This document shows, one piece after another, positions 3,406-59,449 of a stretch of 64,000 nt of DNA. The notes beneath the pieces were generated by a model that was not told where the DNA came from, did not search any database, and saw nothing but the letters and a program-made list of their open reading frames with translations. Position numbers and translations under genes: made by a program. The stretch is from Ampullaceana balthica (lineage: Eukaryota > Mollusca > Gastropoda > Lymnaeidae). Positions within the stretch are counted from its first letter, which is position 1; the number at the start of each line of letters is the position of its first letter. The stretch is taken from NCBI GenBank assembly GCA_944989445.1, contig CALYLW010001192.1:106001-170000 (forward strand), in the 5' to 3' direction.

Positions 3406-5375
3406 CACATGTTCCTATTCTGTAAAGTAATCAAATACTCTGAATGTGAGTGATCCATTTACTCTCTTGTTGCACATCGGGATCACGTATAAGCGCTCTT
3501 TATTATCTGACCGTATTTCCTAAAGAAATCTGAATCACTGGTGTGTATCAACCCTTTTAGTAAATAAATGTCTTATGGTTGTCCCTTTCACTTAAGTTTA
3601 ATGCTTGTTTTTATCATCTTCTCCATTTAAACTTTTTCAGGGTCACATTCTGCAGGTATGTTTTCAAATATAAAAAAAAATTCAGCAGTCCTTAAAGGTA
3701 AATAATTAATAAGTATTTGTATTTATATTTATATCAGTAGTACATTATGTTATTGGGAAAAAATGGGATTTAATAGGGAATTTTTAACAAATATAATTTT
3801 TTTTTAAAAACATTACAAGTTATTTAAAGATAAAGAAACATCTAAAATAGTTTATACATGCAGTAAAATGTATATAAATGTGTTTTTAAAGGGTTACACA
3901 TTTTGAAAACGACATATTTGGAATAATCGCGAAATTTCATTTAACAAAATAAACTGAAAATTAAGAAGTAACTACAATAGTTATAATCCCTCTAAAATTG
4001 TGTCAAGAACCTTATTCTGAAACGTTATAGGTTATCATAAGTTTTAATTGTTAGGTAATGAACACAAAAGACTAAAATATTTGTGGGGAAAAATGTAATA
4101 ATGTAATTATTTAATATTGTACAAAAACTGTCTATATTCTTGGCAATTCCTTTGCCTGAATAAGTAAAAAAAGAATTGAAACAAATATTAGTTAACATTG
4201 CATCTATCTTACAAATTAACATTTAAATAAATAAAATTAAATGAAAATTATTAGCACAGATACTTGACAAAATAAAAATAAATACATTATAGAAAGAAAG
4301 TTTTTTAAGCAAAAAATTATTTGAACAAAAACAGAATATTGAAAAAAAAATAATCTAAAGCTAAGCAAAATAGTTAACTTCTCTTACAACATTTTTAGCC
4401 AACAGAAACAAGTTTTAATTGTATAAGCCGCCTTTTATTATAAATTGTATTGTGTTTGAGCTTTTAAATGTTAATGGAATTTACCTTGAATGGTTTGTAT
4501 ACCATAAACTAGAATATCCAAACTCCAATGAAGGTTAGAGTATTAGTTTTTCATTCAAGGTAAATTCCGGAAACATTTAAATCATCATGATCAATTATAG
4601 GTTAAATCCACACACTAAATCAACATCGTTTACAAAATTTGATTTTTCACAAAGTCTAAATTTGCGTAATAGGTATCATTAAATGTTTTAGTCCCCAGAT
4701 ATTCGTCTCGCGTGTCGTTGAACAATTTCTCCTCCAGGAATTTGATGACCACACGGTCTTCTTCCAGATAGAACTTGTTGGCAAATAGATGCTTGGTCTG
4801 ACCAAGTCGATTCAGATCACCTGATTATGGACAGGATACAAAAACATTAAGCTAAATTTTATTTTCGTTAACATAATTAGGTAATATGCTCCTTTATTTT
4901 TTTGCTTTAAACTTTGAAAATTCATTCTATTTGTTTACACAATTTTTCATTTTGTAACTGAATTAACAGTACTATGTTTATAAAAAAATTGTAAACCTAT
5001 ATTAAAGTGATTTTTCTCAAAATGTTATGCTATGTTATAGGAATATAAAAGTGCCAATTGCTGAAAAAAGAAGAATATGAGTATCTGATGTCTACGAGCA
5101 ATTGTTATGTGTAAGATTTCTAGACTGGAATATTCTATTAAAATGCATAATTCTTTTAAAAATCTGCAGCCTTTGTTTTTTTTGTCAACATTTAGACATC
5201 TCAAACTAACTACATCGATGTGTGTTTAGTTACCTGTACTTTGGATACAAACTGCTCTAACCGTATGACCGGCGCAAACGCTATCATTCCCAAACCAAAC
5301 TGTGTATCTAGTCACAAAGTCCTTCATGTTGTCCGGATCACCTGTGATTATTGATTAATTAATTAATTTATATAT

Positions 5376-5891
5376 TAGGGCTGTTGACGATTAATTACAA
5401 TTTAATCGTTAACTTTTGAAAAATTAACGATTAATGAATCGTAAATTTTGATAAAGCCAAAAAATTAAAATTATGACATAATAAGTAGCACTTATGAAAC
5501 GCTCTTGTTGAAAATCTCAATAAGTCTCTTTTTATCGCATCTTTTAACCAACTACGCAAAAAGACAAGTGTGTTGACATTATTTGGTTCAAGTGATGAGC
5601 GGGTCTAATTGACAATATAACCAGCCGAGCTGAATAATCATTCACATCAAACTGAGGTAACTGGTGTGCAAGAGACGGTCTTGGCAAAGAATGACAGTAA
5701 GTCATTCAATAGCTTAAATCCAAAATAATCGTGTAATCGTTAGGAAATTTGTTATTTTTCGGCCGCTATAATTTTTTTTTGAGTTCCAAAAATGTGTAAG
5801 TGATGGTTCGATAAATCCTAACAAAATAATTTAATTGTTAAAAATTTTTAACGTTTAATCCAGAAATTAATCGTTAATTTCTGCAGCCCTA
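5376..5891. mobile_element. MITE family M1, copy b (complete, TAGGGCTG...CAGCCCTA)
   Basis: Terminal inverted repeats TAGGGCTG and CAGCCCTA enclose about 516 bp. The subterminal parts are rich in ATTAATCGTTAA-type motifs. It sits in intron 4 of GCNT copy 1 and is absent from the matching introns of copies 2 and 4, so it arrived after or during their divergence. The termini suggest the hAT superfamily; no exact 8-bp target duplication could be read in the AT-rich flanks. Confidence 0.75.
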
Positions 5892-5920
5892 TTATATAAA
5901 TATATATATATATATATATA

Positions 5921-6480
5921 CAGAGATACCTCGAGATACGAGTTTAATTCTTCCGCAACCTTACTCGTATGTCAATGTGCTCGTATATCAAAGCAATTTT
6001 CCCCAATGAAATTAATTGAGGTGCCATTAATCCGTTCCAGTCCAAAAAATCGCTACCCCTTATTGTTTTTGTTACGAGTTTTTGAATAAGAAAAATGTAT
6101 TACTAAATGAAGTGCTCAGGATCTGATTCAGCAAATCACAGTAAATCATTCATGCCTTCTCGTCTATGATGCCCTGTGTTAGTGTGTTAAGGTATCGCCT
6201 TAAATCTGCTTCTCCGTCACCCAAACCATCAGCATTTTCTCCATGTTTTAATGGAGAGAGCTCTGGAGCTTAGAAATTATTGTAACGCCCTAAGCTGGCG
6301 TTATACCCTTTATCGACTCCTTCTGTTTAAGCACTGTGCATATCGTTGAAGTACTACGCCCGTACTGCCTCACAAAGTCATTGACTCGCACACCTGGCTC
6401 ATTTTTTTCTATGATTTCACGCTTTAATTTAATAGAATTCATCTTGTTCTGAGCGCTGACCTTTCACCTCACTTTTTTCG
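5921..6480 (-). mobile_element. Tigger/pogo-type transposon fragment with decayed transposase N-terminus
   Basis: The left end (cagagataccTcgagatacg, preceded by TA) resembles Tigger/pogo termini. On the minus strand from about 6442 a frame begins MNSIKLKREIIEKN and continues with RQYGRSTSTICTVLKQKE and ITPA, then stops. This is the CENP-B/psq-type helix-turn-helix start of a TIGD-like transposase. The frame is interrupted after ITPA and homology fades by about 6150. No second terminus or DDE core is seen. It lies in intron 4 of GCNT copy 1 and is absent from the paralogous introns. Confidence 0.7.
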
Positions 6481-7319
6481 GTCACGTGGTTATAGATACA
6501 TTAACTTCACATTTAATGAAAATGTAAATAAACGCAGGTCGTGAGGGCTATTGTTCGTTAAGTTTTTTTGACTAATTTATAAGGTTGAGACAGTTAATAA
6601 TGTTTAAGTACGAATAAATAAATGAACTTAAACATGAAACATGGTGTACAGTTCTACTACTAGCTCCTACTCATGTCTCTAAGCATACACCGATGTCAAA
6701 ACTTTCCCCTTATATCCTCGTTTCCCGCGCAGGTGTTTGATTTTAGTCTCATTCCCCTTGTTTAATCTTCGACCCTAATTCCTAAATACGAATTATTGTC
6801 ATTCTTTATCCGTCACTTCCCTTACAAGCTTCACTAACAAATAACCCAGCCCAACCAACGCCAGCTAATAGTTCACCCACCAGCAATACGTGCAGATTTA
6901 GGGGTTTTCCAACGGAAATTTCAATTGGTATGCAAGTTTAGAGGTCAACTTATAATTAATTTATACGATTTATTGCGAATCTGACCATTGTATTATTATG
7001 TGGGATCTAAGGAGAGTGGGTAATGTATTAAATTGTATCTTGTATATATATAAACATATGCATAGACAAATTGCAAAATGTATACATTAGAATTTGTTAT
7101 TTATGTGTCATATAATATGTAGCTAACAATTTTGTAGTTACATATTGACCAGTGTACATTTGAAATGAATCTAGTAAATAAAAATTTCAAGATAGAATCT
7201 GTATTTACACATTTTAATTAATTTTTATTCAATTCTGAAAAAAATAGTTTTGAGTAGATTTCATTTCTTTTGCCTCTCAAGTATTAATAAAACAAAAACG
7301 TAAAAAACCAAGTTTTTCA

Positions 7320-7802
7320 CTATAAATCCTTTATGTACAAGATGTAACTAAAGGAATGTTCATTATATATAATTCGCAGCGCCAGACCATCCAGAAATAC
7401 AAAATTGCAGTTGTGTCGTAAAACATGTTTAATATAATGCGCACCGATCAGGAATATGTTTATAAAAAGAGTTGTCAATAAAATACGCACCTTATTGCGC
7501 GACAAAAAGGTTGTTCAATATAATACGCACCGCAACGCTCTATCTCAAAAAATAGCATGATACATAGGAATCAATAAAATAATCTAAAAAATCAATAATT
7601 TGATTACAGTACATGCGATCGATCTGAAATTTTGATACATTGTTTTTATTATTAGTACGAAACTGCCTGCAAAATTTCATCTCGCTAGCTTACGAGGAAG
7701 TGGATTAAAAATTGATCAAAAGTTTTGGCGACAAGCATTCAAGCAATCAAGCATTCAAGCAATCAAGGTTGCAGACACCACGAGTTAATATAAAGGATTT
7801 AA
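7320..7802. mobile_element. MITE family M3, copy a
   Basis: The ends are ataaatcctttatgt and taatataaaggattta, a degenerate inverted pair of the M3 termini (AAATCCCTTATAT). The interior shares cgatctgaaattttgata and the aaaatttcatctcgctagc-like block with the other M3 copies. It lies in intron 3 of GCNT copy 1. Confidence 0.6.
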
Positions 7803-10095
7803 AAAGAGAAAAAAAAATTCGCAACGGGTTTAAAGTATTGTCATAAAATTAGTCTCGTACCTCTGTAAGTTCCACGCACGCCCAGTTGAGGGTTAAAGTT
7901 CATAGTTGAAAAGAAAGATTCATCGGGTACTCGAATTGTTTTGGTCCAGTTTAAAACTGCTATAGCAGTCTCGTTATGGAGGATGAAATCAACAAACTCT
8001 CTGTGTTAAAAATATACCATCAAACTCAAATATATCAATATATATATATATTATATAACATATATATATATGTATTTGTAATATCAATAATTTTAATTTT
8101 ATTACTGCTTTTCGTTACAAGTAAATGTATATAATACAACATCTTTAAATATGAAGGTAATCATTAACATTATACTATTGACCATAAAGTGGTCCTCGGT
8201 CTGAGTTTAGTTTGGGGTGTAAAGATCAAATGAGACATCCATATATACCTACGTTTAAATAATTTATTTAGCTTTTGAAAGAGTTTATTTCAATAATTTT
8301 GTGTTGCCAAATCTATATAGATCTCAGTTAAATACATATGTTTCAAATAATAATCAAGAAATATTTAGTCTGTAGAAAAATAAATAAATAAGTATGTATG
8401 TATGTGAGGTATTCAAAGCGGTGTAAAAAGATCATTTGAAAATTGTGAGTGCAGCATTGGCTTTAAATATCAAATGTAATTTTGTGGTGGGGGTGGCGGC
8501 CAAAAGTATTTTTTTTATTTAAAAGGGGATGGGAGATCTTGACAAGAGTGACGTAAATGAAAAAGGAAAAAAAACAATGTTAATTTTCCTGGTAATATCA
8601 TGCTTGCCAGTGGGATTCACAGGTTTGTATATAATGACTCTTAGTAGGCCTGCAGACGCGCTGACGCTCAGCCAGTGTGTCCAACTTTATTAGGAACGAG
8701 AATCGAATTATTTATATCTTAAAATGAAGGACATAAAAGACCTGCTGGCTGTTATAAATAAAGCTCCCTTAACCGGCCTCAGACCAAATGGCGGTGGTTT
8801 CTGTTCCCATCGATTGCTGTTGGCTCTGAAGATGGAAAGCATTTATTTACTAAAAAGTTAGACTGCCTGACAATACTTTTCAGATTTAACAATTTTATAT
8901 GAAAGAAATAGTTCTAATAGATTGTATTATAAATTGTTTTTCTAACCTTACTGCATGCTGTGTCGTTTAGTTTATACGCATATAAAGATATATATGGCAA
9001 TACAAAATTTATTAAAATGTATTTGTCTTTAAATTATGAAAGCAAATAAAATTAGTTTTAAAAGATAATTTATATAATAATAAAACAAAAATAGAGGGGA
9101 AAAATAAAACAAAATGTAGTAACCATGCAATTAAAGCCAGAGAAAATAAAAACAAATGTAAACATATCTAAATTTGTAAGAACACATTTAAATTTAAGAA
9201 ATCCATTTAATTATATTTTAAATAAATTTACGTTACAAATTAAATGAAAAAATATATACATTACTCAATTAATCAAACTGTCAAGAACAACCAAAAATCA
9301 ATCTAATATGTATGTAACGATACTTTTTGGCAACGAATAATTTCCTGATCATTATGTCTCCTTTACTTTTCCCCAAACTAATGTCAGCTACTATCAAACT
9401 AAAAAAAATTATATAAAAAACCTAAATTTATATAATCAAGTATTTTTATCTTTCTTCAATCATTGTACCGTTTTATAGTTCCCTCTATATTGTTAGCTCC
9501 GTTCTAAGCCTTCAATATTTTAACCAGCTCAAAATTGGTCTTCAATGGAAACTCCTGTCCAGTCAGGTTGATGAAATATTTCCAGGGTTTATACCGCCAA
9601 AGTTCCTCCATACAAATCAGCTGTGGTTCTAATACACTAAACTGACCCCACTGAACGTTTGCTCTCTTAGCCGACAGAAAAACGTTAGAAAAACAATTCG
9701 CTATTGATGATATTGCAAGGAAAAATGTTGCTGGTGACTTTAAGTCTATATGAATACAGTAAAAATTTTGTGGTCTAAAAATAGTCCTCAATAATCGTTC
9801 CACCATTTCAGCGTTTTTATAAGCTACAAAATTCAAATGCAATAGGAAACACGTTTTCTTCGTCAGTTAATAATGACATTATATATCCTCTAGTTTGACG
9901 AAATTCTTTACAATCTCTTGTTAAGTTGATATAGGATTCATCACTGACTGACTCGTTAAACTTTGGAATGATTTTAGTCACTTCCTTTGTGTAATTCTTG
10001 TCTCCCATAAATAACCGGGAGCAGTTTACGCCTTGTACATTGTATTTACTTGAAAGATCTTTGATGCATTCCTGACTACCATTACCGCCCCACGT

Positions 10096-10953
10096 TTTTA
10101 GTCATATTAAATGAAAGTACTTCAACTTACAAGTTTTTAATTATTTTCTTCTTTTTAGTCCGCTTATAAAAACGTGTTTTTTAAAAATATTTTTTTTACT
10201 TCTATTTATTTTCTATTTTTTTCTTTTGTGTGTGTTGTATTTTGTGTGTGTGTGCATTTAAAGATATTACATCTACATTATGTGCTACATTTAAACTGCA
10301 CATTAATGTATATATTTAACCTAGTTTTGATCATATAAACCAGGATTTAGCATAAATGCATTGCATAAATTGTTAAAGTTACAAAACCAAAACAGACAAT
10401 TGTTGAGCGATGTTCATTTTCCATAATGAAGATAAAAAAACAACAACATATTATTGTCGTGTATTACTCAATGGCCGTCAATAAAAAAAAATCTTTATAG
10501 CCGGAATAATTAGCGAAGCCAAATGATAAGGTTCAAACGATCTTGAAAGGTCCCACTGTCTAAAAGAAATGTTGTCTAATTATGACAACTGGATTTAGTT
10601 ACTTGAATATAATATGCATAATTATTTGTTTAAGACGAGAAGAGAAAGAAATATTTTTTAAAAATATCTAAAGGAAAGCATTAGCATTTTATTAAAAAAA
10701 TGTTTTTTAAAAATATGCTCTATAAATTTAAATCATGTCTTTAGGTAAAGACGATTTTTGCGCACATTATTTGGCTTTAATTAGAGAATTCGTAAAACTA
10801 TACTCTCTTGATACCAGTTATTTAAACACTTAGAAAGAGAAAGCTTAATATTTCTCCCGTTCTATTAGACATGTAGAAACGAGATGATGAATTATATATA
10901 TATATATATATGTATATTTATATTTAATAATAAAAATAATTAAATAAATAAAT
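10096..10953. other. Intergenic stretch, no gene seen
   Basis: AT-rich sequence upstream of GCNT copy 1. A weak match around 10.40-10.62 kb to 50.88-51.06 kb (both with an aatggccgt...aataaaaatctt block) suggests the duplicated unit once included upstream sequence of copy 2. A (TA)n tract lies at 10893-10912. No promoter element could be assigned. Confidence 0.4.
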
Positions 10954-19386: not shown

Positions 19387-19494
19387 TTACAAAATTTCAT
19401 TTCGTACAAACTGTAAATTAGAATAATAAGCTTCATGAAATACCTTAGCTCCTAGGTAAGTATCCCGCGTGTCGTTGAAGAGTTTCTCTTCTAG

Positions 19495-19709
19495 TATGCA
19501 AGAACAAACTTATACAGATTTTCGTTCTTCCCATCCGGAATTCGGGCGTGGAATGGGGTGCCTGAAGAAACCAGGAAAGCGAACATTTTATCAACATTTA
19601 AAACTCTAATAAGAATGCAGGACTAAACACAAACCATAGATAAGCGTAGGATGCAATAATCTTCTGTATAGAAGGAGCGTCTGAAACAGATAAGATGATA
19701 AGATAGTCA
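19495..19709 (+). mobile_element. 5'-truncated LINE 3' end inserted in exon 5 of GCNT copy 3
   Basis: The exon homology stops at ctcttctagtat and resumes at acccaatgaccacacgg. The insert reads FFPSGIRAWNGVPEE...ANILSTFKTLIR then a stop, the typical C-terminus of Jockey/CR1-like LINE reverse-transcriptase ORFs. A 3' UTR and a (GATAA)-type tail follow. The last ~50 bp (gcaataatcttctgtatag, ggagcgtctg) recur in the tRNA-SINE at 41909-42200. An exact target duplication is not clear (tagt may flank both sides). Confidence 0.75.
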
Positions 19710-19888
19710 CCCAATGACCACACGGTATACTTCCAGAAGGAACTTGTTAGCAATAGATGCTTGGCCTGGACTAACTTAATCAGATCAGCTGTCAAAATTT
19801 TAAAAAAAGATTAAAAAAAAGATAAATACTGGAATTATAATTTGATATTATATATATTATTTATTATAACTGTACTTTATATACATGT

Positions 19889-23889: not shown

Positions 23890-25040
23890 AACATGCTAAC
23901 CTGTACACAGTACACATAGTCCAGCCCACCTTTACAAAGTACACATAGTCCTGCCCACCTCTACAAAGTACACATAGTCCTGCTCACCTGTATAAATTAC
24001 ACATAGACCAGCTAACCTGTACAAAATACACATAGTCCTGCTAACCTGTACAAAGTACACATAGTCCTACTGAAATATACAAATTAATCACAGTCATGAT
24101 CACCTGTACAAAGTACACATAGTTCCAATCACCTGTACAAAGTACACAAAGTCCTGCTTACCTCTACAAAGTACATATATTCCTACTAACCTGTACAAAG
24201 TACACATAGTCCTGCTCACCTGTACAGAATACATATATTCCTACTAACTTGTACAAATTACACATAAACCTGCTCACCTGTACAAAGTATACATAATCCT
24301 GCACACCTTTTAAAAGTACATATAGTCCTGCTCACCTCTACAAAGTATACATAGTCCTGCTCACCTTTAGAAACTAAACATATTCCTGCTCACCTGTACA
24401 AAAGTAACACATCGTATAGCTCACCTGTAGAAAGTACACATAGTCTCATTCACCTGTACAAAGTACACACGGTCCTGCCCACCTTTACAAAGTACACATA
24501 GTCCTACTGAACTGTACAAATTACACGTAGTCCTGCTCACCTGTACAAAGTACATATATTTTTGCTAACCGTTACAAAGTACAGATAGTCCTGCTAACCT
24601 TTACAAAGTACCCATAGTCCTGCTCAACTGTACACATTACACAATGTCTAGCTCACCTGTACAAATTACACATAGTCCTGCTCTCCTTTGCAAAGTACAC
24701 AAAGTTCTACTTAACTGTACAAATTACACATACTCCTGTTCACCTGTAAAAAGTACACATAGTCCTGCTCACCTGTACAAAGGAAACAGTCATGCCTGCT
24801 CACCTGTACAAAGTAAACATAGTCCAGCTCACATGTACAAAGTACATATATACCTTCTTACCTGTACAAAGTACAAATAGTATGGCTCAACTGTACAAAG
24901 TACATATTGTCCTGATCAACTTTAAAAAGTACATATAGTCTTGCTCACCTGTAAGAAGTACATATAGTCCTCATCCCTTTACAAAACATACATAGTCCTG
25001 CTAACCTGTACAAAGTACATATACTCCTGCTCACCTTTAC
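23890..25040. repeat. Minisatellite of ~39 units, each a copy of an exon 3' end plus 5' splice site
   Basis: The unit is 29-30 bp, cacctgtacaaagtacacat followed by agtcctgct, with point variation between units. On the minus strand each unit reads ggactatgtgtactttgtac then AG|GTGAGC. The end of exon 4 of GCNT copy 3 (25035 and above) reads ggactttgtgtactttgtaa then AG|GTGAGC, so the exon end is itself the first unit of the array and the most likely source. Each unit also has a short inverted repeat, TGTAC-aaa-GTACA. There are no unique spacers, so it is not CRISPR-like. Confidence 0.9.
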
Positions 25041-25529
25041 AAAGTACACAAAGTCCACTCAATCTACGGTCATCACATTTCTCTGGTTAGCCGCCCAGTA
25101 CTTAAACCGAGTCATAAAGTCGGTCAATTTAGCTGGGTCTTCTGTAACATTGTAAGGAGAAACTATTTTAGAGAGAGCCGTGTTATTTTAAATAAACTCT
25201 TAAAGCGTAGTATGCTGGTAAAGGACCATAAGAAATGCATAGACTACTAAACAACTGATGACAATCTTTGTCATCATCACTACATGAACTATACAATTTA
25301 TCAAGGTATTGGTGTATTTTCATTAAGAAAAATAACTGAAAAAGAATAAACATCTCTAATTAATGTCCCACATAAACGTGTTTACGGTCATGGATTTTAA
25401 AAAAATTTTAGTAAAAAAGAAATATATATATATTTATATTTATATTTATATAGCGCAACGTCCTAAATAAATTTGTTTTACGAATTATGAGCAGGTCTAA
25501 ATCTATTGTCCACGTAAGTTAATTTTAAT

Positions 25530-26295
25530 TAAGTCTGTTAACGATTAAAGCCAAAAATAGAAATTTATGGTGTCATAAGTAACATTTATTAAAATATAAT
25601 GGCCGAAAATCTAAATAAAAGTTGAATGTCTTCTTTATATGAGGTATTTTAACCAACAACGCAAGCAGACACGCGTATTGACATTATTTGGTTCAAGTGT
25701 TGAGCCTGTCTTATTGACAATATAACCAGCCGAGATCAACTGTCGTTCACATAACTTTAGATTGTCTCAACTGAAGATTCCGATACTGTAGTGGATGTAT
25801 AGTTTGCAAGTGATATGTAAGCGAAATTTTAGAACCATGGTAGCAATGTTCCCTTTTCGCAGTGCGGCTGCGGATATATTTTACCGACGCCACGCAAGAG
25901 TTTAGAATCACCGCGCAGCAAATTTTGTAAAATATTGCACAAACAAATGGATGTTGTGCAAATTTGCACACGATTTTTTTTTAAACTTTGCACACGGACC
26001 AACGAAGCTTAGACATAGCGGGAACATTGCATGGTAGTCAAGCGATTTCTCTCAATTGACACAATATCCTTTGTCTTTATCAACATTTTGAACGTTTACG
26101 TCAGTCAATAGTTTAAAACAAAAGTGTTCGTGTAATCGTCCGCAAATTAGTTTATATTTATCATCAAAAATATTTATTTTTTTTAGTTTCAGTACATTTA
26201 TAAGTGGTGGGTCAATTAATCGTTAAAAACAAAATTTAATCCTTAAATTTGTTTACGATTAATCGAGAAATTAATCGTTAATTTCCGAAGCCCTA
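25530..26295. mobile_element. MITE family M1, copy c
   Basis: Shares aatttatggtgtcataagtaa, ttgacattatttggttcaag, ataaccagccgag and a terminal taatcgttaatttccgaagc with copies a and b. It is longer in the middle (about 25755-26100), probably through a further insertion. Lies in intron 3 of GCNT copy 3. Confidence 0.65.
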
Positions 26296-27562
26296 ATTTT
26301 AATAAATAATTATTTTATTGAAACTGAACAACATTTTCTTATTTAAAAAAAGAACCTCTAGGATGAAAAAAAAGTTTTGGGATTATAGTTTAAGTCATAT
26401 AAAAAAAACAGAAAAAACAAGGCAACGGCCTCTGATCTGAACAATCTGTTGGTAAGAAATAATGCTAATATCAAATTCCTTCGCTATGTACTCTTTGTTT
26501 TCTCGTGGTTGTTCAAACCATAGAAAAACATACTAATAATTAATGTGTTAACAATTATAACAAATCAAAGTCATGATTGTACTGACATATGAGACGCATA
26601 AAAATACGGGTATTTTCACAAGTTTCATTGCATCATTCTTTCTCCAATGTTTTTATTTTTCTTTTTCAAATACAGTTTTTACGAATTATAATAAACATTC
26701 CATGGGCGCATCACCATATATTTCAAACAAAACCACTTGGAAGGAGGTCAACATCTTAAGTTTGTGGCTGTTTCATCCTAACATAATCTATAAGCTGGCG
26801 ATTTACACATAAAGGCTTTAAGGGGAATAACTCCTGTACTCCAATCAGTTAAAACCGTAATCATTTTTTAAAAATAAAATTCCCTTAGATATTTGCTCAG
26901 TTTTTCGAAAGACAAATATGCATTAACATATAAGAAGACTTTAAAAAAAATATAAACATTTTGAAAAACGTATTATGCTTATACAACTTGCTGAATTTTA
27001 TTTTCTAAACGCATGTATTTCTTACGTACTAATTAACGTGACCTTTGAAATTCCATGAACTAAAATAAACTAATGCGATAAAATTTTGCAAATTTAACAT
27101 GTTACGTGACAAAGATAGGTTAGATATTATACTAAGTAAAATTTAGCCCATACATAACTATAACAGAAAACAGTATTTCAAACTATCTTAACGACTTGAA
27201 TAAATTATTGTATTTTGAAAATAAATTTCACCTTGCTACTCTCTATGAAATCGGACGATACTAGTTAACATCATCGACTGTGCATAATATTCATAAGTAT
27301 TGTTGAAATAATTATTTTTAAATATATATTTATATATATAAAGCATTAGTAATTCATTTGTTATATCATAATTTTGTATTCTTAATTCTAAATAATTTTC
27401 GGCACAAAAAAAGATACCTAATTGAGTAAAATCAAGCCTATCATATATTTTCAAAAAGGATAATTTAGTTATATCAAATTATACAATTTCCCTCCCTCAA
27501 TTGTGTTTTAAAATGCAGTGCGGCTTAGGTTAAAAAGTTAAGCTCTTGCAGTTTGTAACAGA
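26296..27562. other. Intronic stretch of GCNT copy 3, nothing recognised
   Basis: AT-rich sequence with scattered short frames on both strands. None shows a recognised domain or exon-like borders. Confidence 0.4.
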
Positions 27563-27567
27563 ATGTT

Positions 27568-27872
27568 TGTAAATGATTTGCTTATTAATGTAACTTTTGT
27601 AGGCGTTCTCTCAATACAAAACCTTGTACACAATAATCCTCTGAAGAATTTGTGTCAATAAAACAACTTTAATATGTATGCTTAGTACAAGAAATATAAT
27701 TTGATGTTATACAACGTGGAACACACTGGAATACCTCTGCCATGACACCAGCCAACTCTAACACTGACTTCACCTCATTAGCCAATGGGAACGACTCTTT
27801 CTTCCCGCGCTTTTACTCACGTGACCTCTCCGTCATACAATCATGCAACATACTCGTGATTCACACGTGACA
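27568..27872 (-). repeat. 3' LTR of element A (305 bp)
   Basis: Begins TGTCACGTGTGAATCACGAG on the minus strand and ends AATCATTTACA. It has an ATTAAAG-like signal before the GTTGTTTTATTGA block, which is also conserved in the relative at 57390-57670. Confidence 0.85.
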
Positions 27873-28217
27873 TTCACCCCCATCCATAAAAAAAAATGTT
27901 TATGAAATACAACAATTTTGTTCTTAATAAAATCAAATCAATCTCTATATATATATTCAAATTTCAAATATTTATCATCAATGGACATTCATTTCCTTAC
28001 ACACAACATGTGGACATAAAAATCAAGAGAAAAAATATGTAGGACTGCAACAGTCTACCTGTGATGAAAAAATGAAAATGGAATTTTAAACACATCTGTA
28101 ATTTTGTGTAATTAAAATATTTTAAACAATCAATATTATTAAAATTAACTAATAATTAGTGGACTTTAGACACTGTTCCTTGTTTATTGTTCAGCGAATA
28201 AAAATATTAATATTTTT

Positions 28218-28399
28218 ACAGTCTCTGGTTGTATCATTTTGGAATTCACAGACTAATTTTAATACAGTCTCTGGTTTTATCATTTAGGAATTCACAGAAT
28301 GTCTTTTTAATACAGTCTCTGGTTTTATCATTGAGGAATTCACAAACCAATATTAATACAGTCTCTGGTTTTATTACTTAGGAATTCCCAGAATGTCTT
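28218..28399. repeat. Four tandem ~47-bp repeats near the 3' end of element A
   Basis: acagtctctggtt recurs at 28218, 28264, 28312 and 28358, each followed by atcattt..ggaattcacag. It lies between the RNase H remnant and the polypurine tract. Confidence 0.85.
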
Positions 28400-28402
28400 T
28401 AT

Positions 28403-28560
28403 TTATTGTCATTCTACTTAATATGTCTGCATCCACATTGTCCTTTCCCTTCACAGATTTAATGTTAAATTTGTAGTCGGCTAATAGCATAGCCTAGTTC
28501 AAAAATAGTCATTCTTCAGTTGACGAGTATGAATTCAAATCGTTGGGCTTTGAATGTTTC
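28403..28560 (-). pseudogene. RNase H C-terminal remnant of element A
   Basis: The minus-strand frame reads AMLLADYKFNIKSVKGKDNV then DADILSRM, the conserved tail of gypsy-type RNase H (LxxYDFxIxxVKGKDNVxADALSR). Upstream sequence in other frames (DLNSYSSTEE) probably belongs to the same domain. No integrase follows before the LTR. Confidence 0.7.
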
Positions 28561-28585
28561 TTCAGGCTGTTAAATGTTCAATAAT

Positions 28586-28954
28586 TCACCAACCATGACC
28601 ACGATTAAGTCCATTCACAATATAAATTCCAGAATCTTGAATAAGTTGCTTAGCTTTTGAGATATCATTCTTGCTTCCAGATAATTCAATAGAATTTCTA
28701 CCAGATGGGTCTCTGTCAGAAAGCTTTATCCGAAAATCATTGTTTTTATCTATGTCTTCCATTCTGCTTAATACACAACAAATTGTTCTTCCTACTTCAG
28801 ATGATTCCACACGAAAGGTTTCAGATTCAATAGTACCATTTTTTAATCTGCTACTATGGTCTTCATCCCTTTTATCATATACGATATTGTCAATTATGGC
28901 TAAAGTATCACTAGTTTTTATTTCTTCTCGATTCAACTTTATTTTATCATCCAT
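28586..28954 (-). pseudogene. KH-like RNA-binding segment downstream of Gag in element A
   Basis: The frame starts MDDKIKLNREEIKTSDT. Its C-terminal half has the layout of a type-I KH domain: FRVESSEVGRTI, then SRMEDIDKNNDFRIKLSDRD, then NSIELSGSKNDISKAKQLI. The GXXG loop that contacts RNA is replaced by CCVL, so nucleic-acid binding by this copy is doubtful. Reading the same frame upstream (QSWRDRYNHNS, FYQPWRKNEKQD) links it to the Gag C-terminus with one stop, in a different frame from the CCHC part. It is therefore either the C-terminal domain of this element's Gag or a captured host exon. The KH assignment is by pattern only. Confidence 0.55.
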
Positions 28955-29058
28955 GTCTTGTTTTTCATTCTTTCTCCATGGTTGATAAAAATTTCTTATT
29001 CTAAAATTAAAACTATATCTGCCTATTCATGATCTTCTGCTTTGATTATAATCTATAT

Positions 29059-29841
29059 TTATGGAATTATGATTATATCTGTCTCTCCATGATTGTCCAT
29101 CTTGTTTTCAAAGTGATCTTGTCTTGATTTTTCTTCTCTTTTCTTTCTTATAGGATTGCCATTAGGTGACACCCTATTTGGTTGTCCTTTATTATGGTAA
29201 CACTGCTTCACCATATGACCTGGCAAGTTACAGTACCAGCAAATAGTTTGTCTGTTGTCTTGATTTCGCAGACTCTGGTTTCTCATTCCTTGTCTTTTTT
29301 CTTGATTTTTAATTTGTATTGCTGCAAAGATATTTTGTCTCTTATCCATTTCCACATTTGGATGAGAGTTTTTGAATGTGCGTAATGCATTTGTTAGTTT
29401 TGCTTGAGTACGAACTTTCTTATCAGTTAAATTTGTGATTAGAGTGTATGTGGCATTTTCTAAAAACTTGTCAATTAACACCATATTTAGTATGACCATT
29501 GGATTGCTCGTATCTATTGCTGTACGTTCCAGCCATTTTGTTAATTTAACTTGTGCTTTATGCACTATGATCTGTGGATCTTTGTCCATCTTGATTCTCA
29601 TTTCATGAAAATCGTTTTCTATAATAATTTTCTGACTTTCCAAAATGACATAGAAGTGCCTTCTTGACATGTTTATATATGCTTTGTCTTCTTTGGTTAT
29701 ACTGTTATAAGCTTCAAATGCTTCTCCAGTTAGTTGAGTCATCAATTGTGCTGGCCAATCTTCTTCATTATAACCTTTCATGGCCATTATGGATTCAAAA
29801 TAATCCAGATAAACATTCATTTTTTTCTTTATGGCTATCAT
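29059..29841 (-). pseudogene. Gag of element A: SCAN-like segment and CCHC zinc knuckle
   Basis: A 260-codon frame from ATG at 29841. Residues ~20-130 include DWPAQLMTQLTGEAFEAYNS and LTKWLERTA, resembling the SCAN-like capsid segment of gypsy/Gmr1-type Gags. The nucleocapsid motif CWYCNLPGHMVKQC (CX2CX4HX4C) is near residue 202, followed by a basic stretch. It would package element RNA in cytoplasmic particles. The natural N-terminus lies upstream (29990-30232), separated by stops near 29990 and 29922, and the C-terminus continues in another frame. The copy is therefore inactive. Confidence 0.82.
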
Positions 29842-29989
29842 ATTTTATAACTTTGATAGTGTCCTTTGGTGCTGACTTTCTATTTGTGTCATTACCAGCA
29901 TTGTGGCCTCTACTCTATAAATCAATTTGTAATTTTAACTGATCAATTTGAAGTTGTTCAAGTTCTCTTATTGAAGCTCTTTCTTCGCT

Positions 29990-30232
29990 CTAAATTATTT
30001 GTCTTTGCCTCCTTTTTTCATCATCCTCTTTTTGCTTTTGCCTCCATTTTTCTTCAGTAATTCTTTGATTATCTTTTTCTTTAGCTTTTTTTAGCTTTTC
30101 TTCTTCTTTAGCTTCTTTTTGCTTTTGCTTCTCTTTTTCTTCAGCAATTCTTTGATTTTCTTTTTCTTCAGCTATTCTTAGCTTTTCTTCTTCATTGGCA
30201 ATTTTGACTTTCTCTTCAACAAAGTCCTTCAA
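29990..30232 (-). pseudogene. Coiled-coil N-terminal part of Gag, element A
   Basis: Reads MKDFVEEKVKIANEEEKLRI and then Glu/Lys/Gln-rich heptads (EEKEKQKQKEAKEEEKLKKA) up to RRQRQII and a stop. Element B's Gag has the same kind of charged coiled coil ahead of its SCAN-like segment, so this is the detached start of the 29059-29841 frame rather than a separate gene. Confidence 0.7.
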
Positions 30233-31089
30233 TTCTCTTCTACTTAAGCCAAATTGTTCTGCAATGGCAATGAGTTATTTGTAGTAAACCATGTTTTGTT
30301 ATATGGAATAATATGAGTCAAGCAATTCGGTAAGGAATGTAGGTATTTAATTGTTAAGGTATAAATTCTCCAAATGAAAAAAATCTTTATTTCAAAATGT
30401 TAAGTTCAAATAAGTGACACATCTATACCATGAAATTTAGTTTTGACAAGGTGATACAACAAAGCATCCTCACACGGGATCTTAAAGTATACTTTATATA
30501 TACGCTCCCTCAGATTAACAAAACACATCCGATGGTCCAAAGGTTTTACTATGAAATAAGTCACTTAGTTAAATTTTCAATTTCCGAGTTGTTTTTATAC
30601 AATTTAGTTCACTCCATTAATCCAAATTTGCAATTATCAAACTCTTCACACAATGAATGGATATGACACAGTTGTTAATAGTCGATATCTTTCCAAGTTC
30701 AAGGTTATGTTTCCAAATATTTCCTGGAATCAACCGGCACCAGTGATCTAGATGACGTAGTTCACTGCGTGTAACAGTCAGTAGGCTTGTGTATACTGTC
30801 GACTGTAAGGTTAGAACCAACTAGGTGAACTAGTTGTATACAGTGCATGCCGTGGTTTCGTGCGTTTAAGCCGCTATCTGAAATACTTAATACATTCCTT
30901 CAATCTTCAAAAGTTTATACACTGCCACACATGGCCTTTAATATTCACAAAATATGATAGCTGCTAATATTTCTTCTTTTAACGAATACTTTCCTTTTTG
31001 AAATATATAATAATGGTGACTTCCACGAACCTCATTTTCTGGATCGTGATAATAAGTCAATCCTTGTTCACTTTGACGTCAGACACCAA
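30233..31089 (-). other. Leader and primer-binding region of element A
   Basis: Non-coding between the 5' LTR and gag. Directly inside the LTR the minus strand reads TTGGTGTCTGACGTC, a candidate tRNA primer site; the relative at 57.39 kb starts its interior with TTGGTGTCGAAG. Confidence 0.55.
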
Positions 31090-31400
31090 TGTAAATGGCT
31101 TGCTTATTAATGTAACTTTTGTAGGCGTTCTCTCAATAAAAACCATTGTACACAATAATCCTCTGAAGAATTAGTTTCAATAAAACAACTTTAATATTTA
31201 TACTTTGTACAAGAAATATAATTTGAGTTTATACAAAGTGGAATACACTGGCATACGTCCTGCCATGACACCAGCCAACTCTAACACTGACTTTTCCCCA
31301 CCTCATTAACCAATGGGAACGACTCTTTATTCCCGCGCTTTTACTCACGTGACTTCTCCGTCATCTAATCACGCAAAACACTCGTGATTCATCCGTGACA
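31090..31400 (-). repeat. 5' LTR of element A (311 bp)
   Basis: Direct-repeat partner of 27568-27872, starting TGTCACGGATGAATCACGAG and ending GCCATTTACA on the minus strand. Small indels and substitutions relative to the other LTR point to an old insertion. Confidence 0.85.
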
Positions 31401-32289
31401 GTGTTGAAACTTTATTCTAACGGTTCTTGGTTCCGAGACCCATTTCTACAGCCAAGTATGTCAACGAGATGAAATCACTGAACAGTAAATGAAGACCTAC
31501 CACCCTTGTAAGTCCCACGCACATATATCTGAGGGGTAAAGTACAATGTAGGAAAAAAAGCTTCGTCAGGTATGAGAATCTGTCTGCTCCAGTTCAGAAC
31601 CACCTGGGCAGTCTCATTGTGTAAAATAAAATCTACGAAATGCCTAAAATTATCAATTAATAATAAAGCTTTTTTTTTCGTTTCATCTCATTTCAAACGA
31701 AAAGAAGGTACTCATTTTTTTAAGTAATACATTTAAAACAAATTTGAAAAAAACTAATATTTGCACCTTAAATATTTGAGATTGTATTGATTAGTGTAGG
31801 TCAAATTACTTTTTTAGAATTTATTATTTTTATGTTAAATTTTAATATCAATTTTCTCCTGTAAGGGATATAATATGTATTTAAAAAGCATCCATTACCA
31901 TATTTAAATCACATGCACATTTTATCATTTTTAGTGTCCTTTTCATTATAATAATATATTTAAAATAGCATTTTAACAGAAAAGCATGGAAAGAAAATGA
32001 AAGCTGTTTAATTTTATTATTGTTTTTATTTTAATTTTTTTCTTAAAATGTATAACATTTTTTTTTATATTTCAAACTATTTTATTTGGTTGATGTTAAA
32101 AGAGAAATATCTAAATTTATTAGCAGACCCGTCTTGCGTTGCAATGATCAAAGTAAAAAGAAATACATTTAAAGAAACCAATGAGTGGTATGTTTAAAAT
32201 CAATTCTGAAGAAACCTTCGTGGAAGTGTGAAAAAAATCCAAGTTTCATAGCAAACGGATAAATAAATTAATAGTTAAATCGCGTACAA

Positions 32290-33358
32290 AAGAAGAAACC
32301 TTATTAAGGGCCCCGGCCCCAAAATGCGTGATATTATAGTTTTTTATTGCCATTGTACTCAAGCTATATTCATCAATATCGTGTAAAATTGAATAGGAAA
32401 TACAATGATTAAAGTTCAGTAAAAAGACTTTTTCGAAGGAATGGAAATTAAGAGTTCAGTGCCCTATAGTAATATATGCTCTTAAGTTTTTATACTCTAA
32501 GTTTTGTCAAAATCAAGTTATTTTCTCAATATCTAACTCTTAAACTACTTTTTATATACCTAAATTAGGGGGAAAATAATATTAAAGGGCCCCAGGCCCA
32601 TTCGGTGCAAGAGGTCAATTTCAAAAACCTGTTCATTTTAGTTCATTTTTATTGTGGCTATATTTCTCAAGCTCTTTAAAAAGTAAATAGGAGAAATATC
32701 TTAAACATATACGAAAAAGATATTTGGGGCACCCGGCCCCGAAGATATTGGCATTAGAAGTTCAGTGTCTATATTATTTTAATATGGGCTACCAAGTTTT
32801 TGTTTGCAAAGTTTGGTGAAGATCTATTCATTTACTAAGTAGATAACGTAGAAACTAATTTTTATATAGCTTATATTAGATAAAAACGACATTAAGGGCC
32901 CCAGGGCCCATTCTAGGCAAGATATAAAGTTCAAAAATTATGTTCATTTCAATTAGTATATTAATTGATACATGTGTCATAATTTGTCAAGATTGTTAAT
33001 GGCTGAATGGTGAATAAAATCTTAAACACTAAAAACATTTTAGTTTTTAGGCCCCCAGACCCAAAGGAATGAATATTAGCAGTTTAGTGCCCTATAGTAT
33101 TTTAATATTGGCTATCAAGTTGTCATATACACATTTTGGTTAAGATCCAATAATTTAAACAGTAGCTAAAGCTTAAAACTAATTTTTATATAGCTCGTAT
33201 AAACAAAACATGACAATATGGGCGCCCAGCCCCATGAGTGTTAAATTTTGAAAAAAGTGACAGTTACCATCTCGGGAGCATACTCAACAGTCTTGAAAAG
33301 TTTCATGACGATCGGGTGAATGGTTTAGACAGCTATAAAGGACATTCATACACACACA

Positions 33359-33429
<71 letters not shown>

Positions 33430-35765
33430 ATAAATAATTTAAAAGTTTACAAAAGAAGAAACGATATTAAGGGCCCAGGCCCGAAAATGAGTGATACGTT
33501 ATATTTTTTTTATTGCTATTGTACTCAAGCTATATTTTTCAATATCGTGTAAAATTAAATGGGTAATGTATTTAATAACGCTCAGTTAAAAAGACATTTG
33601 GGGCCCCCATCTCCGAGGGAATGGTCATTAGGAGTTAAGTGCCTTATAGTAATGTAATATAGGCTCTAAAGTTTTTATATACTAAATTTGGTCAAAATCC
33701 AGTTATTTTTGCATTATTTAACTCTTAAACTAATTTTGTATCTAGCCAATATAGGAAAAATAAACGAAATTAAGGGGCCCCCGGGCCTATGCGGTGCAAG
33801 ATGGCAATTTCAAAAACGTTTTCATTTTAATTTAGTTTTATCATGGATATATATTTCTCAAGATTGTTACAACGTGAATGGGGAAAATATCTTAAACATA
33901 TACGGAAAAAAGATATTTGGGGCCCCCGGCCCTAATGAAATTGACATTAGAAGTTATGTGCACTTAAGTATTTTAATATGGGATACCAAGTTTTTGAAAA
34001 CAAAGTTTGGTTAAGATCCATTCATTCACTTAGTACGTAACGCATAAACTAAATTTTAAATAGTTTATATAAGCAAAAAACGACACTAAGGGCCCCAGGG
34101 CCCATTATTTGCAAGACATAAATTTCAAAACACCTGTTCGTTTCAATATGGATAATAATGGATGCATTTATCATTATTTTTCAAGATCTTTAATAAATAT
34201 ATGGGAAATAAATTCTTAAAAGTTGAAGAAAAATGGCATTTTGGGCCCCAGGCCCGAATGAATGGTCATTAGGAGTTTATTGCCCTATAGTATTTTAGTA
34301 TTGGCTGTCAAGTTTTTATATACAAAGTTTAGTTAAGATCCATTCATTTACATAGTAGCTAACGCATAAACTAATTTTTATATATCTTATATAAGCAAAA
34401 AAAAAGACTTTAAGGGCCCCGGGGCCCATTCAGTGAAAGGTATAAAGTTCAAAACCCCTGTTCATTTCAATTTGTATAATAATGGATACACGTGTCATTG
34501 TTCGTCAAGATTGTTAATGACTGAATGGTGAATAAAATCTTAAACGTTTAAGAAATGTGAATTTTCGGGCCCCCAGTCCCAAAGGATTGAATATTAGCAG
34601 TTTAGTGCCCTATAGTATTTTAATATTGGCTATCAATTTTCATATACAAAGTTTTGATAAGATCCAACAATTTACACAGTAGCTAGCGCTTAAACTAATT
34701 TTTATATAGCTCATGTAAACAACAAATGACATTATGTGCTTCCGGTGCCCCAAGAGTGTTAAATATAGAAAAAAAAGTTGCCAGTTACCATCCCAGGTGG
34801 GTACTTAAAAGTCTCTAGAAATTTCACGACGATCGGATGAATGGTTTAGTCAGCTATAAAGGACATGCGCACACACACACACTCGCACACACACAGACAT
34901 ACTTTGATTTTTATATATATACATAGATAAGAAAAAAAGACATTTAGGGCCCCTGAGTCCATTTGGTGATAGATGTAAATTTCAAAAACATTTTCATTTA
35001 ATTATGTTTCCTCATAGATATATTCCTCAAGATCGTGACAAATTGAATGGGGGAAAATACATTAAACATATACGAAAAAAAGGCTTTGGTGGCCCCCGGT
35101 CCCGAAGGAATGTACATTTGAAGTTATGTGCCCTATAGCCCTATAGTATTTTAATATGGGCTACCAAGTCCTTGTATTCAAATTTTGGTTTAAATCCATG
35201 CATTTACTCAGTAGCTAACGCATAAACTAATTTTTTATATCTTATATAAGAAAAAAAGACATTAAGGGCCCCGGGGCCCATTCAGTGAAAGATATAAAGT
35301 TCAAAACCCCTGTTCATTTCAATTTGTATGATAATGGATACATGTGTCATTATTTGTCAAGATTGTTAATGACTGAATGGTGAATAAAATCTTAAACGTT
35401 TAAGAAATGTGAATTTTTGGGCCCCCAGCCCTAAAGGAATGACTATTTGCAGTTCAGTGCACTATAGTATTTTAATATTGGCTATCAAGTTTTTATATAC
35501 AAAGTCTGGTTAAGATCCAACAATTTACACAGTAGCCAGCGCTTAAACTAATTTTTATATAGCTCATATAACCAAAGAATGACATTATGGGCCCCCGGTG
35601 CCCCATGAGTGTTAAATTTAGAAAACAAAGTTGCCAGTTACCATCCCAGGTAGGTACTTAGCAGTCTCAAAAAATTTCATGACGATCGGATGATTGGTTT
35701 AGTCAGCTATAAAGGACATGCACACACACACACAGACATACTTTGATTTTTATATATATAGATGA
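32290..35765. repeat. 3.5-kb array of GGGCCC-punctuated repeats
   Basis: A gggccccnggccc-like motif recurs about every 130-170 bp (32310, 32584, 32727, 32892, 33049, 33216, 33465, 33600, 33767, 33915 and on to 35590), each followed by similar AT-rich text (ccctatagtattttaatatt, ggctatcaagtttttatat, taagatccattcattt). Higher-order units end with a cgatcggatgaatggttta motif and a CA/TA tract near 33220-33427, 34740-34920 and 35590-35765. Non-coding; it sits in intron 2 of GCNT copy 3. The last unit ends tttttatatatatagat, like dispersed repeat R1. Confidence 0.85.
33361..33427. repeat. (AT)n microsatellite
   Basis: Uninterrupted AT dinucleotides between two units of the GGGCCC array. Confidence 0.95.
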
Positions 35766-36299
35766 TGCCGCACCTGCTGGCTGTTATATGTCTTTGACTG
35801 GTTGTATGCCGAATGGTGGTAGATTCTTCTTCCATCTCTGATGATACGTTCTAAGGCAAATGAATTATAAAACATGTTAAAATCAATTATATTCTATCTC
35901 TTAAATTTCAAATATGTATTTGGGAGTAAAATGCTAGCGATAGTTTAGTTCCATCTCTCCATAATACAACTAACTCCATGTAAGATTGCAACGCTTTGTT
36001 TTAAAATAAGTATCACTTTGTATAAAGAAATTTTCGGAAATAGAATTAGTAGCAGTGAATAGTAAATTCACAATTCTTAACAGACATGAAAGAAAACGTA
36101 TTTTCTTTCATGCCTTTGAAACGGTTTGAATATCAACACTTAAGGAATATTAATAATAAGGATTGTGTTAACCTAAAGCAGCTACGGCCTGTCATGTATG
36201 GTTACAATCTGAAAGTGTCGAAATTGCAGTTTATTAAAATAGCTACAATATGTTTGTTAATTTTTTTATTTTTGTGTATCCCATAACCTCGTGGTCGTA

Positions 36300-36497: not shown

Positions 36498-37679
36498 GTT
36501 AATAATGTGTTAATAACAAGATCTTAATCAATAAAGTATATAGCCTCGTGGGTTGTCTATTTTGAACGGAGGATATCATTTGAACAAAGAACTTCATCAG
36601 TGAAGCTGAAAATATTTGTAAATGTAAATACTCACCATAAGGACTTTTACTTTCTTTAGCTTTTATTAAGATAGATTTTGTTTTTATACAAACTACTTGA
36701 TTCGGTTTCATTAGTTGTATTTTTTAAAATGTTATCTCACATAAACAAATCTGTTAATTGCAGGTATTAGAACATGTGATAATATCTAACACCGAAACAC
36801 CTGATTGACTGGAGTAGACCTATTTATGTGTATACATTTATATATATTTATTCGTTTCTGTATTTATATATTTATCATTTTTAACTTAGGTAATGTGTGA
36901 TTTTACCTTTTATCGGTCCCGTTAATGTTAGATGCCCCATTGTAAGCCTTAAGGATTTTGACCAGCTCAAAATTCGACTTCAATGGAAACTTTTCTCCGG
37001 TCAAGGTTATGAAATATGTCCATCTTCTATAACGCCAAAGTTCTTTCATGCACAGAATCTCAGGTTCCAACACACTGAACGTCCCACCACTCTACAGAAA
37101 TCCTCTTTTCGGCTAGAAACACGTTAGGGAAACATTGAACGATCAGAGAGATCGCCCTTACGAAATATTTCACGCCTTTCATATCCACATGGATGCAATA
37201 ATAATTTTGTTGTCGATAGATCACTCGCAACAATTTCTCCACCATTTCTGAGTTTGCGTACGTCATGATCGAATACGCAATCGGGAAATTTTTCTCTTCC
37301 TCTGTCAACGATGACATGATGTATCCCCTCTCTCGATGGAATGACGGACAGTTTTCTGTCAAGTTTAGGTAAAATTCATCGCTAAGAGAACTTCTAAATT
37401 GTGGGACCATTTCAACAACTTGGATTGTGTATTTCTTGTCGCCGGCAAACAGTCGTGAGCAATCAACATCCTTGACCCAATATATTCGAGATATGTTTCT
37501 GTTGAATGGGGTTGTCTTTGCAAGATTTTCTTTGTTTCCGCAACTAAAGTAATTTTCCTTAAGCCTAGATGTTGCGTGATTTCCATTTTCTATTACAACT
37601 AAAATGTACAGCAATCCCCCGGTACAGATTAAGATAAAAATCGTTTTTTCTCACGACTTATTAATCGCATTAGAAACAT

Positions 37680-42606: not shown

Positions 42607-42797
42607 TTATAAAATCTGATTTTTCACAAAGTCTAAATTTGCGTAATAGGAAACGTTAAAAATTTTAGTCCCCAGATATTCGTCTCGCGTGTCGTTGAAC
42701 AATTTCTCCTCCAGGCATCCGATGGCCACGCGGTCTTCTTCTAGATAGAACTTGTTGGCAAATAGATGCTTGGCCTGTCCAAGTCGATACAGATCAC
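42607..42797 (-). CDS. GCNT-like: Exon 5 of GCNT copy 2 (191 bp), C-terminus
   Basis: Encodes [17 protein letters not shown], then a CLEEKL motif, and ends LDFVKNQIL and TAA. Length is identical to 4630-4820 and 58563-58753. Confidence 0.88.
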
Positions 42798-45700
42798 CTG
42801 ATTATGGACATAATAAATTTTTTTATTTAAGCTGGATTTAATTTTAGGTAACATAAGTATACATTAATATGTACCTTAATTTATTTATTTGAAACTTTGA
42901 AAATGCATTCTATTTGTTTAAATGATTATTAATTTTGTTACCAGAATTAATAATAAAATGTTTCCACACATTTTGTTAACCTAGATTATAGTGATTCTTC
43001 AAAAAATATTATGTTACATGTATCTAAAACTGCAGATTTCTGAATAGAGAAGATTACAAGAATCTGGTGACTATGAACAATTGTCAATTGAACGATTTTC
43101 TAGACTGTTTGTTCTATTATATTGCGTAAATTTGTTTTCTATAGCCTTTGTTTTTGAGTCAACACTTAGACATCTCAAACTAGCTACATCGATGTGTGTT
43201 TAGTTACCTGTACTTTGGATACACACTGCTCTAACCCAACGACCGGCGCACACGTCCTTACTCCCATACCACACAGTGTATCTAGACACATAGTCGTTCA
43301 TGTTGTCGGGGTCACCTGTGATTATAGATTAATTTATAGATATATATACAAATTAAATTCACATTCAACGTAAACTAAATAAACGCAGGTAGTGAGTGTT
43401 ATAGTTCGTAAATGTTTATTTTACTACTATTATGTAGACACATTTACTAATGTACGACAAAATAAATGGACTTTAAAAGGAAACATAGTGTACAGTCCTA
43501 CTACAGCATATGCTCTGTTGGCTCCTACTCATGTCTGTAAGCATTCACTTCTGTTAAAACTTTCCAATTATATCCTCGTTTCCCGGGCAGGTGATTGTTT
43601 TTAGTCACTTCCCTTTCGGTTAACCCTTGACCCTAGGTCCTTAATACGAATTATTTCCCCTTTTTATTACACGTTTTTATTTAAGTCACACTGGTTGTAT
43701 GTTGTATCCATCCATCCATCCATCCATCCATCCATCCATCCATCCATCCATCCATCCATCCATTCATCCATCCATCCATCCATTCATCCATCCTTCCATC
43801 CATCAATCCATCCATCCATCCATCCATCCATCCATCCATCCATCAATCCATCCATCCGTCCTTCCTTCAAATCTTGTAACGTAAAATTAAACCCATTTTG
43901 ATGGATCTAGAGATGTCAAAATTTTACCACAGAGGGATCTTGGATGACAATGCATTGCATCAAAATTTCAGATCGATCGAATGTACCGTAATTAAATTAA
44001 TGCATTTTTAGTTTTTAGTTTATGTCTATATTTCGTTCTTTTTAAATCCCTTATATTAACTTCGCGCTCGTCTCTCTCTCTCTGTCTTGGGCTCGGCGGG
44101 CTGGGCGGAAAAACAGAAGTCAAAAATGACCCACTTCCCATGATCCGATCGAACTGAAATTTGGCACATGGACCCGTCTAACCCAACAATGCATCGTATC
44201 AAAATTTCAGATCGATCGAACGTACCGTAATTAAATTAATGCATTTTTAGTTTATCCTTATATGAGGTATGTAATTCAAAATTCACTGTTTGTTATTGTT
44301 TTTTTTCTTCCAGTTTCACGTGAGTTTGAGTTGACGCCGACCGTCGTGTTGACGCCGACCGTCGTGCCGACACCCCCTCACATCCCACCCCCATTTATTA
44401 AAGACAAGGGACATCACTCGGTGTCAGTCTGTAAATGTTTGAAAATAATCAATACTGTTAGTTATGTCTCATATATAAGGGATTTATAGTCAAAAACTTT
44501 GTTTTTACGGGTTTGTTTTATTCTCAAACAACGCCTATCGACATAGTAATTTTCAGGGCGGGGGCGGGTAGTCCAGAACCAATGAAAAAATAAGGTCACG
44601 TCTTCTCCAGCCAATCGGCGTAAGGTGAACAATTGACAGCGTCCGTTCATGGCCTGTGCGCACGTGTTTTTACTATGGGTCTGTCATGCAGACACCGATA
44701 ATGTTTACATTTCGTGTTTAACATCTAAGTAAGACGAAATTAAATCTAAATTGACATGATAATACAAGAAGAGTAGCAGGAGTTTTGATTATTCAAACAT
44801 TCCTTTTATCAGTTATGCCCCTTCTCACACCTACATTTTAAAAAAAAATTAGACTTAAAAGTAGAAGATAAAATACTGTAAAAAAAATTTTTTTTTAAAA
44901 AAGGACACGTTTTTATTTACAATATAGAAAGTGCACTAAAAAGATAAAATGCTTTTATGTGCAGTGGATAGGTTAACAATTTCACCTGTTATCATAGAAA
45001 ATTTTAATTTTAATTTTATTCTTTTTAGTGCACTTTCTATACGTAAATAAAAGCGCGTCCTTTTTAAAAATAAGATTTTTTTTTACATTATTTTATTTAT
45101 GTGTGACTTCCTTTACAAGATATACTAATAAAAATCCCACCCAAACAAAGGCAAATTAATAGCTAACACCGAAAATACGTGTTTATTTAGGTTTTTTGAT
45201 TTCCCGCGACAATTTCCATTGGCATGTAAGTGGTCAACTCATAATTCATTAATATGATTTATGAGAATCTGACCACAGAACTACGATGTGGGAGCTGGGG
45301 AGAGGAGGGTGGGGGAGTTGAGTGTTCTAAAATCTGGGGCACCTTTGTATACAGTAAATACCCTAAGGCTGTGGTTACACTGCTCGCGAATTCGCAAATC
45401 TAGTATACGGGCGAACGCGCATCTGAAATCTCTTGAAAAACAAATGCAATGACATAGTGTGCGTGGTTACATTGGCAGAGTCAAAAACGCTAGTATACGC
45501 CCGTATACACGCGAATAATTTGATTTTTACAGCGCATCGCTCGAATCTGCTTTCAAAAGTCAACAAAATGGCGGAAATTTTTACCACATCGTCAAATTTT
45601 ATGTGTGTAAATGATCATTTAATAAATATAATTGACTTTCATGCATGATTTTCGAAATTTAAAACAATATATTTCCATTTGAAAACTAAACTTATTTTGA

Positions 45701-45991: not shown

Positions 45992-46062
<71 letters not shown>

Positions 46063-48081: not shown

Positions 48082-48154
<73 letters not shown>

Positions 48155-59270: not shown

Positions 59271-59449
59271 CTGTGATTATAGATTAATTTATAGATATAT
59301 ATACAAATTAAATTCACATTCAACGTAACTAAATAAACGCAGGTAGTGAGTGTTATAGTTCGTAAATGTTTATTTTACTACTATTATGTAGACACAGTTA
59401 CTAATGTACGACAAAATAAATGAACTTTAAAAGGAAACATAGTGTACAG

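Follow-up and report, generated by a model that had tools for sequence, protein, structure and literature searches.

Is a long row of repeated splice donors behind a glycosyltransferase exon a working device, or the residue of a gene copy that has fallen out of use? The question is raised by a minisatellite in the pond snail Ampullaceana balthica, located in a stretch of 64,000 nt (contig CALYLW010001192.1, positions 106,001 to 170,000, forward strand; GC content 32.8%), which as a whole is called the window here. All positions below are those of the window. The explanation to which a probability of roughly 0.8 is assigned is that of a minisatellite born at an exon-intron junction of a GCNT pseudogene, which was amplified, then decayed without selection on its donors and, since its host copy is a pseudogene, is most likely inert.

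GCNT copies in the window

Matches to the Pfam family Branch (core-2/I-branching enzyme) were obtained with open frames of the minus strand. Among the best 120 of 734 matches, the closest relatives were beta-1,6-N-acetylglucosaminyltransferases of pond and land snails, and the first five of these 120 were proteins of Lymnaea stagnalis (55-69% identity). Three proteins of Lymnaea and one of Biomphalaria served as queries to locate exons in the window, using matches with E < 1. Five coding exons, A to E, were found by this protein search in the minus-strand GCNT copies; exon D as used here is exon 4 of the preliminary description.

Four copies were distinguished, all on the minus strand. Copy 1 lies at 4633-10101 and copy 2 at 42607-50572; all five exons were found in copy 2, and the matched stretches are without a stop codon. 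For copy 4, the window yielded exons D and E only (58566-59271). The D exons of these three copies (5234-5341, 43208-43315 and 59163-59270, respectively) were used for comparison and are referred to as sister exons. The array is hosted by copy 3, which was traced by the protein search from 37.5 to 19.4 kb. Copy 1, too, seems damaged, as its exon A match shifts frame near 9848-9835 and a stop codon follows further on.

State of the host copy

Copy 3 is a pseudogene with lesions in four of its five exons, namely A, B, D and E. The exon A match (36900-37515) contains an extra base at 37086, which shifts the frame. Exon B (35775-35851) lacks 7 nt in two gaps relative to copy 2, and its frame is broken; the slices compared were 82 and 77 nt long, with end points 2 nt apart. 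Exon C (31502-31645) has kept an open frame. The remnant of exon D (25035-25141, 107 nt), the last 22 nt of which are the exon part of the first repeat unit, is 1 nt short and carries a TGA in the frame of the sister exons. Exon E (19388-19790) is interrupted by a stop codon and by an insertion of about 210 bp, as judged from slices of 403 and 192 nt. Identity to copy 2 was 68-69% in exons A-C and 55% in exon D.

Upstream of the frameshift in exon A, copies 3 and 2 differ at 41/135, 29/135 and 75/136 of the three codon positions in turn, counted with gaps included in one pairwise alignment. This distribution points to coding constraint for much of the separate history of the two lineages, and copy 3 would have died only afterwards.

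Structure of the array

Tandem Repeats Finder reported 40.0 copies of a 29-bp unit at 23894-25056. The units lie head to tail in the orientation of the sense (minus) strand of copy 3, and their sense consensus is GGACTATGTGTACTTTGTACAG on the exon side, followed directly by GTGAGCA on the intron side. Wraparound alignment produced 42 rows, from which two partial end rows with 8 and 11 matches were dropped, leaving 40 full units with a mean identity to the consensus of 25.3/29. Unit length is exactly 29 nt in 37 of the 40; one unit lacks a base and two have two additional bases. With 40.0 x 29 bp, the array agrees with the definition of a minisatellite (several head-to-tail copies of a unit of 10-100 bp). 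The preliminary description had counted about 39 copies, which is correct for the units beyond the one that belongs to the exon itself; its array interval was drawn too far, up to 25141, as 25057-25141 is exon D.

A 24-base pattern of the unit, allowing up to three mismatches, matched 26 times across the window, and all 26 matches fell inside the array (mean in shuffled sequence, 0.00). By this pattern, no unit copies were present outside the array within the 64-kb window. Exact 25-mer matches to the unit in viral contigs numbered 0, although such contigs tell little about a repeat from a snail. No published account of this array was found in the open-licence literature, a search that does not exhaust what is in print.

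Origin of the repeat unit

Unit 1 (25028-25056, minus strand) consists of the end of exon D and its donor, with the GT at 25034-25033. Exon D of copy 3 extends over 107 nt from its acceptor to the first GT, one less than the 108 nt of the exon in copies 1, 2 and 4. Aligned to the three sister exons, the 47 nt at the 5' end of this exon and its final 22 nt scored above all 2000 base-order shuffles, and the complete exon likewise beat all 1000 shuffles. The middle 38 nt could not be aligned to the sister exons, 240 of 2000 shuffles being equally good. The consensus unit, taken without its last four exon bases, was matched in its likeness to the sister exons by 15 of 2000 shuffles.

A ranking that made no use of the copy 3 exon was carried out with the 312 AGGT sites outside the array, each of which was scored against the upstream 20 bases of the unit. 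Copies 1 and 2 ranked first with their exon D ends (12/20 each), and that of copy 4 (11/20) was tied for third place with two other, unrelated sites, on a background with a mean of 5.3 and a standard deviation of 2.05. The exon C ends of two copies reached 10/20. As the sister exons descend from one exon, the ranking counts about once, as roughly a single draw at 2 in 312.

A peptide profile of exon D was built from those members of a set of 33 long relatives that had enough residues in this region, the 33 being all those of at least 380 aa among the first 59 of the best 120. Directly behind the three sisters, the next locus hit by the profile was exon D of copy 3 (E 0.0056), with a match to positions 5-21 of 39, hence to the first half only. 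A Pfam match for this stretch of copy 3 was absent at E 0.001. Past the array, no convincing match to the intron sequence of the sister copies was obtained (best E 0.007 over 21 nt). As the sequence beyond the array is unlike the sister introns, the far junction on the intron side is not proved; the unit appears to span an exon-intron junction, and its exon side is the supported one.

By these comparisons, it is well supported that the array arose from the junction of exon D and its intron, as had been proposed from the sequence at the outset: both exon ends exceed 2000 shuffles, and the donor is placed to within 1 nt. The accompanying statement that codon alignment confirms a genuine exon goes too far for an exon whose middle 38 nt could not be aligned, that the profile covers in its first half only, that is 1 nt short and that carries a TGA in the frame of the sister exons.

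It is unlikely that, instead, an unrelated intronic minisatellite spread to the exon and overwrote its end, and that the likeness is nothing but the general 5' splice consensus. The unalignable middle of exon D would agree with such an event, and from base composition MAGGTRAG is expected in about 0.24% of random 29-bp units on either strand, a rate at which arrays of this kind should exist in any large genome. Against it, the unit register lies within 1 nt of the expected donor position. The likeness also takes in the 18 bases that precede the consensus, where only the 15 of 2000 shuffles were as good, and the list of 312 sites is headed by the ends of exon D from copies 1 and 2, with that of copy 4 tied for third.

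Donor motifs in the units

On the sense strand, GT is kept in 32 of the 40 units and absent from 8, AGGT is kept in 29/40 and GTRAG in 16/40; exact CAGGTGAGC is present in 10/40 and exact TTTGTACAGGTGAGC in 6/40. The sense strand of the array contains the motif MAGGTRAG 13 times, whereas both strands of the remaining window together contain it once. The row of exon ends with 5' splice donors noticed on the minus strand in the preliminary description is therefore real, and several units (32/40 by GT, 16/40 by GTRAG) carry plausible sense-strand donors.

Pairing with U1 was computed for nine donor bases and the U1 5' end, without enforcing the pairing register. The computed duplex was at least as stable as that of the sister exon D donor (-8.0 kcal/mol) in 22/40 units, all of which have GT. 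Compared with the exon D donor, the other three donors of copy 2 pair more weakly (-5.2 to -5.7). Any transcript of the array would thus offer many donors that look usable.

Sequence decay within the array

The donor motif is not preferentially conserved. The mean conservation of the donor 9-mer was 0.839 compared with 0.886 elsewhere in the unit, which is rank 25 of the 29 cyclic windows. When G/C and A/T positions were treated separately, donor and other positions had decayed equally (0.788 and 0.793 at G/C, 0.942 and 0.937 at A/T positions, respectively). Selection on the donors was unsupported by permutation (P 0.54 for G/C, 0.54 for A/T and 0.87 for all positions). The units depart from the consensus 149 times, one departure being a deletion, and 97 of the 149 are changes of G or C to A or T.

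Neighbouring units are not more alike than distant ones (P 0.75), and the pairwise identity among units has no excess variance (P 0.197). Recent local duplication and higher-order repeats were rejected, none of 14 lags standing out (best P 0.42). An age gradient outward from the exon was detected neither in likeness to the sister exon ends (Spearman 0.07, P 0.66) nor in identity to the consensus (Spearman 0.23, P 0.15). Five pairs of co-occurring variants passed the filter, three of them at nominal P values of 0.005-0.011, uncorrected for the number tried; one linked pair combines the loss of the donor G with another change in four units (12, 15, 19 and 34 of 40). The linked variants hint at small subfamilies and at more than one round of growth. 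Overall, the pattern agrees with a single old amplification and subsequent neutral decay; any later rounds were at most minor.

Proposed history and alternative functions

According to the explanation preferred here, a 29-bp stretch across the junction of exon D and intron D (22 exon and 7 intron bases) would have been duplicated in tandem in one GCNT copy, a gene for a core-2/I-branching N-acetylglucosaminyltransferase of Pfam family Branch. The number of units would then have risen to about 40, a single burst being the simplest course. The units would subsequently have decayed one by one, mostly from G and C to A and T, with no selection for splice donors. The array is probably neither transcribed nor functional.

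That the tandem donors are a working element, which creates ladder-like exon ends or binds U1 snRNP in copy 3 transcripts, is very improbable. Such a role would agree with the position of the array on the sense strand and with the 22/40 units whose computed U1 duplex equals or exceeds that of the sister donor. Its host, however, is a pseudogene in which every exon but C is damaged, the donor is not preferentially conserved, 8/40 units are without GT, and because 29 is not a multiple of 3, two in three donor choices would shift the frame. Sequestration of U1 by one locus would, moreover, presumably require very high transcription. Both effects had been suggested in the preliminary description, and neither finds support in a broken copy that has not preferentially kept its donor motif. 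Slightly less probable still is a store of proto-introns, in which AG/GT serves as acceptor and donor at once and pairs of units are spliced out as introns or used as recursive sites. AGGT is indeed available in 29/40 units, and introns made of tandem repeats with AGGT or AGGC are described (PMC4974935, PMC3629103); on the other hand, the consensus has, by eye, little pyrimidine tract before the AG, and the host is, again, a pseudogene. A combination of both ideas, a transcribed pseudogene in which the array forms a ladder of interchangeable AG/GT sites and gives rise to alternative exon ends and small new introns, is given only a very low probability. If true, it would provide a natural test bed for the choice of the spliceosome among tens of near-identical donors and for the birth of introns from tandem repeats.

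Comparison with known systems

A splice-donor minisatellite was reportedly described in the human gene IFI6 (6-16, G1P3) by Turri, Cuin and Porter in 1995. The snail array resembles it in anatomy, being a minisatellite in a gene copy and having units with plausible splice donors. IFI6 is an expressed gene in which two of the downstream units act as donors (PMC4526556); the snail array, in contrast, has a 29-bp unit and lies in a pseudogene, not within a working gene, given the lesions in every exon except C. It was therefore classified as a minisatellite and not as a working array of the IFI6 type. The array of IFI6 is located at the end of exon 2 and has units of about 12 bp.

For fission yeast, introns composed of tandem repeats that carry proto splice sites have been described (PMC3629103), and such introns are discussed for vertebrates and potato (PMC3629103, PMC4974935). 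The tandem units in these cases have AGGT-like proto splice sites, as does the snail array; their starting point is exon sequence and their product a new intron, whereas the snail unit spans an existing junction. Recursive splice sites and zero-length exons also have AG directly before GT, as in the snail unit. Such sites depend on a pyrimidine tract and are used in long introns.

Minisatellites that supply splice donors have thus already been described, and the snail array is a further example. It is unusually readable: the sister gene copies have retained the original exon, and through them the place where the repeat was born can be recognised as an exon-intron junction. Most likely the array documents the neutral birth and decay of a repeat; if it were transcribed, the choice of donors among about 30 near-identical sites could be measured.

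Neighbouring repeats

Two long open frames are present on the plus strand at 60509-62554, where exons A-C of copy 4 might be expected; the first has a zinc knuckle (PF00098) and the second is without a Pfam match, and they may belong to another retroelement. A probable degenerate LTR retrotransposon occupies 27568-31400 in the intron between exons C and D of copy 3. Its direct repeats (27568-27872 and 31090-31400) start with TGT, end with ACA and are 89.7% identical by self-comparison, or 91.5% without gaps. Open frames lie on its minus strand at 28589-30274, with a CCHC-like motif by eye; the one frame scanned, 29062-29844, gave no Pfam match. Between exons B and C of copy 3, Tandem Repeats Finder and self-comparison revealed diverged long direct repeats (32259-35763), including a 324-bp unit reported by the former at 33905-34731. 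An interspersed repeat is present at 25544-26308, at 5369-5902 and, near the start of the window, at 984-1327, its copies being 75-80% alike among the matches listed. It lies upstream of exon D at a distance of about 30 bp in copy 1 and about 400 bp in copy 3.
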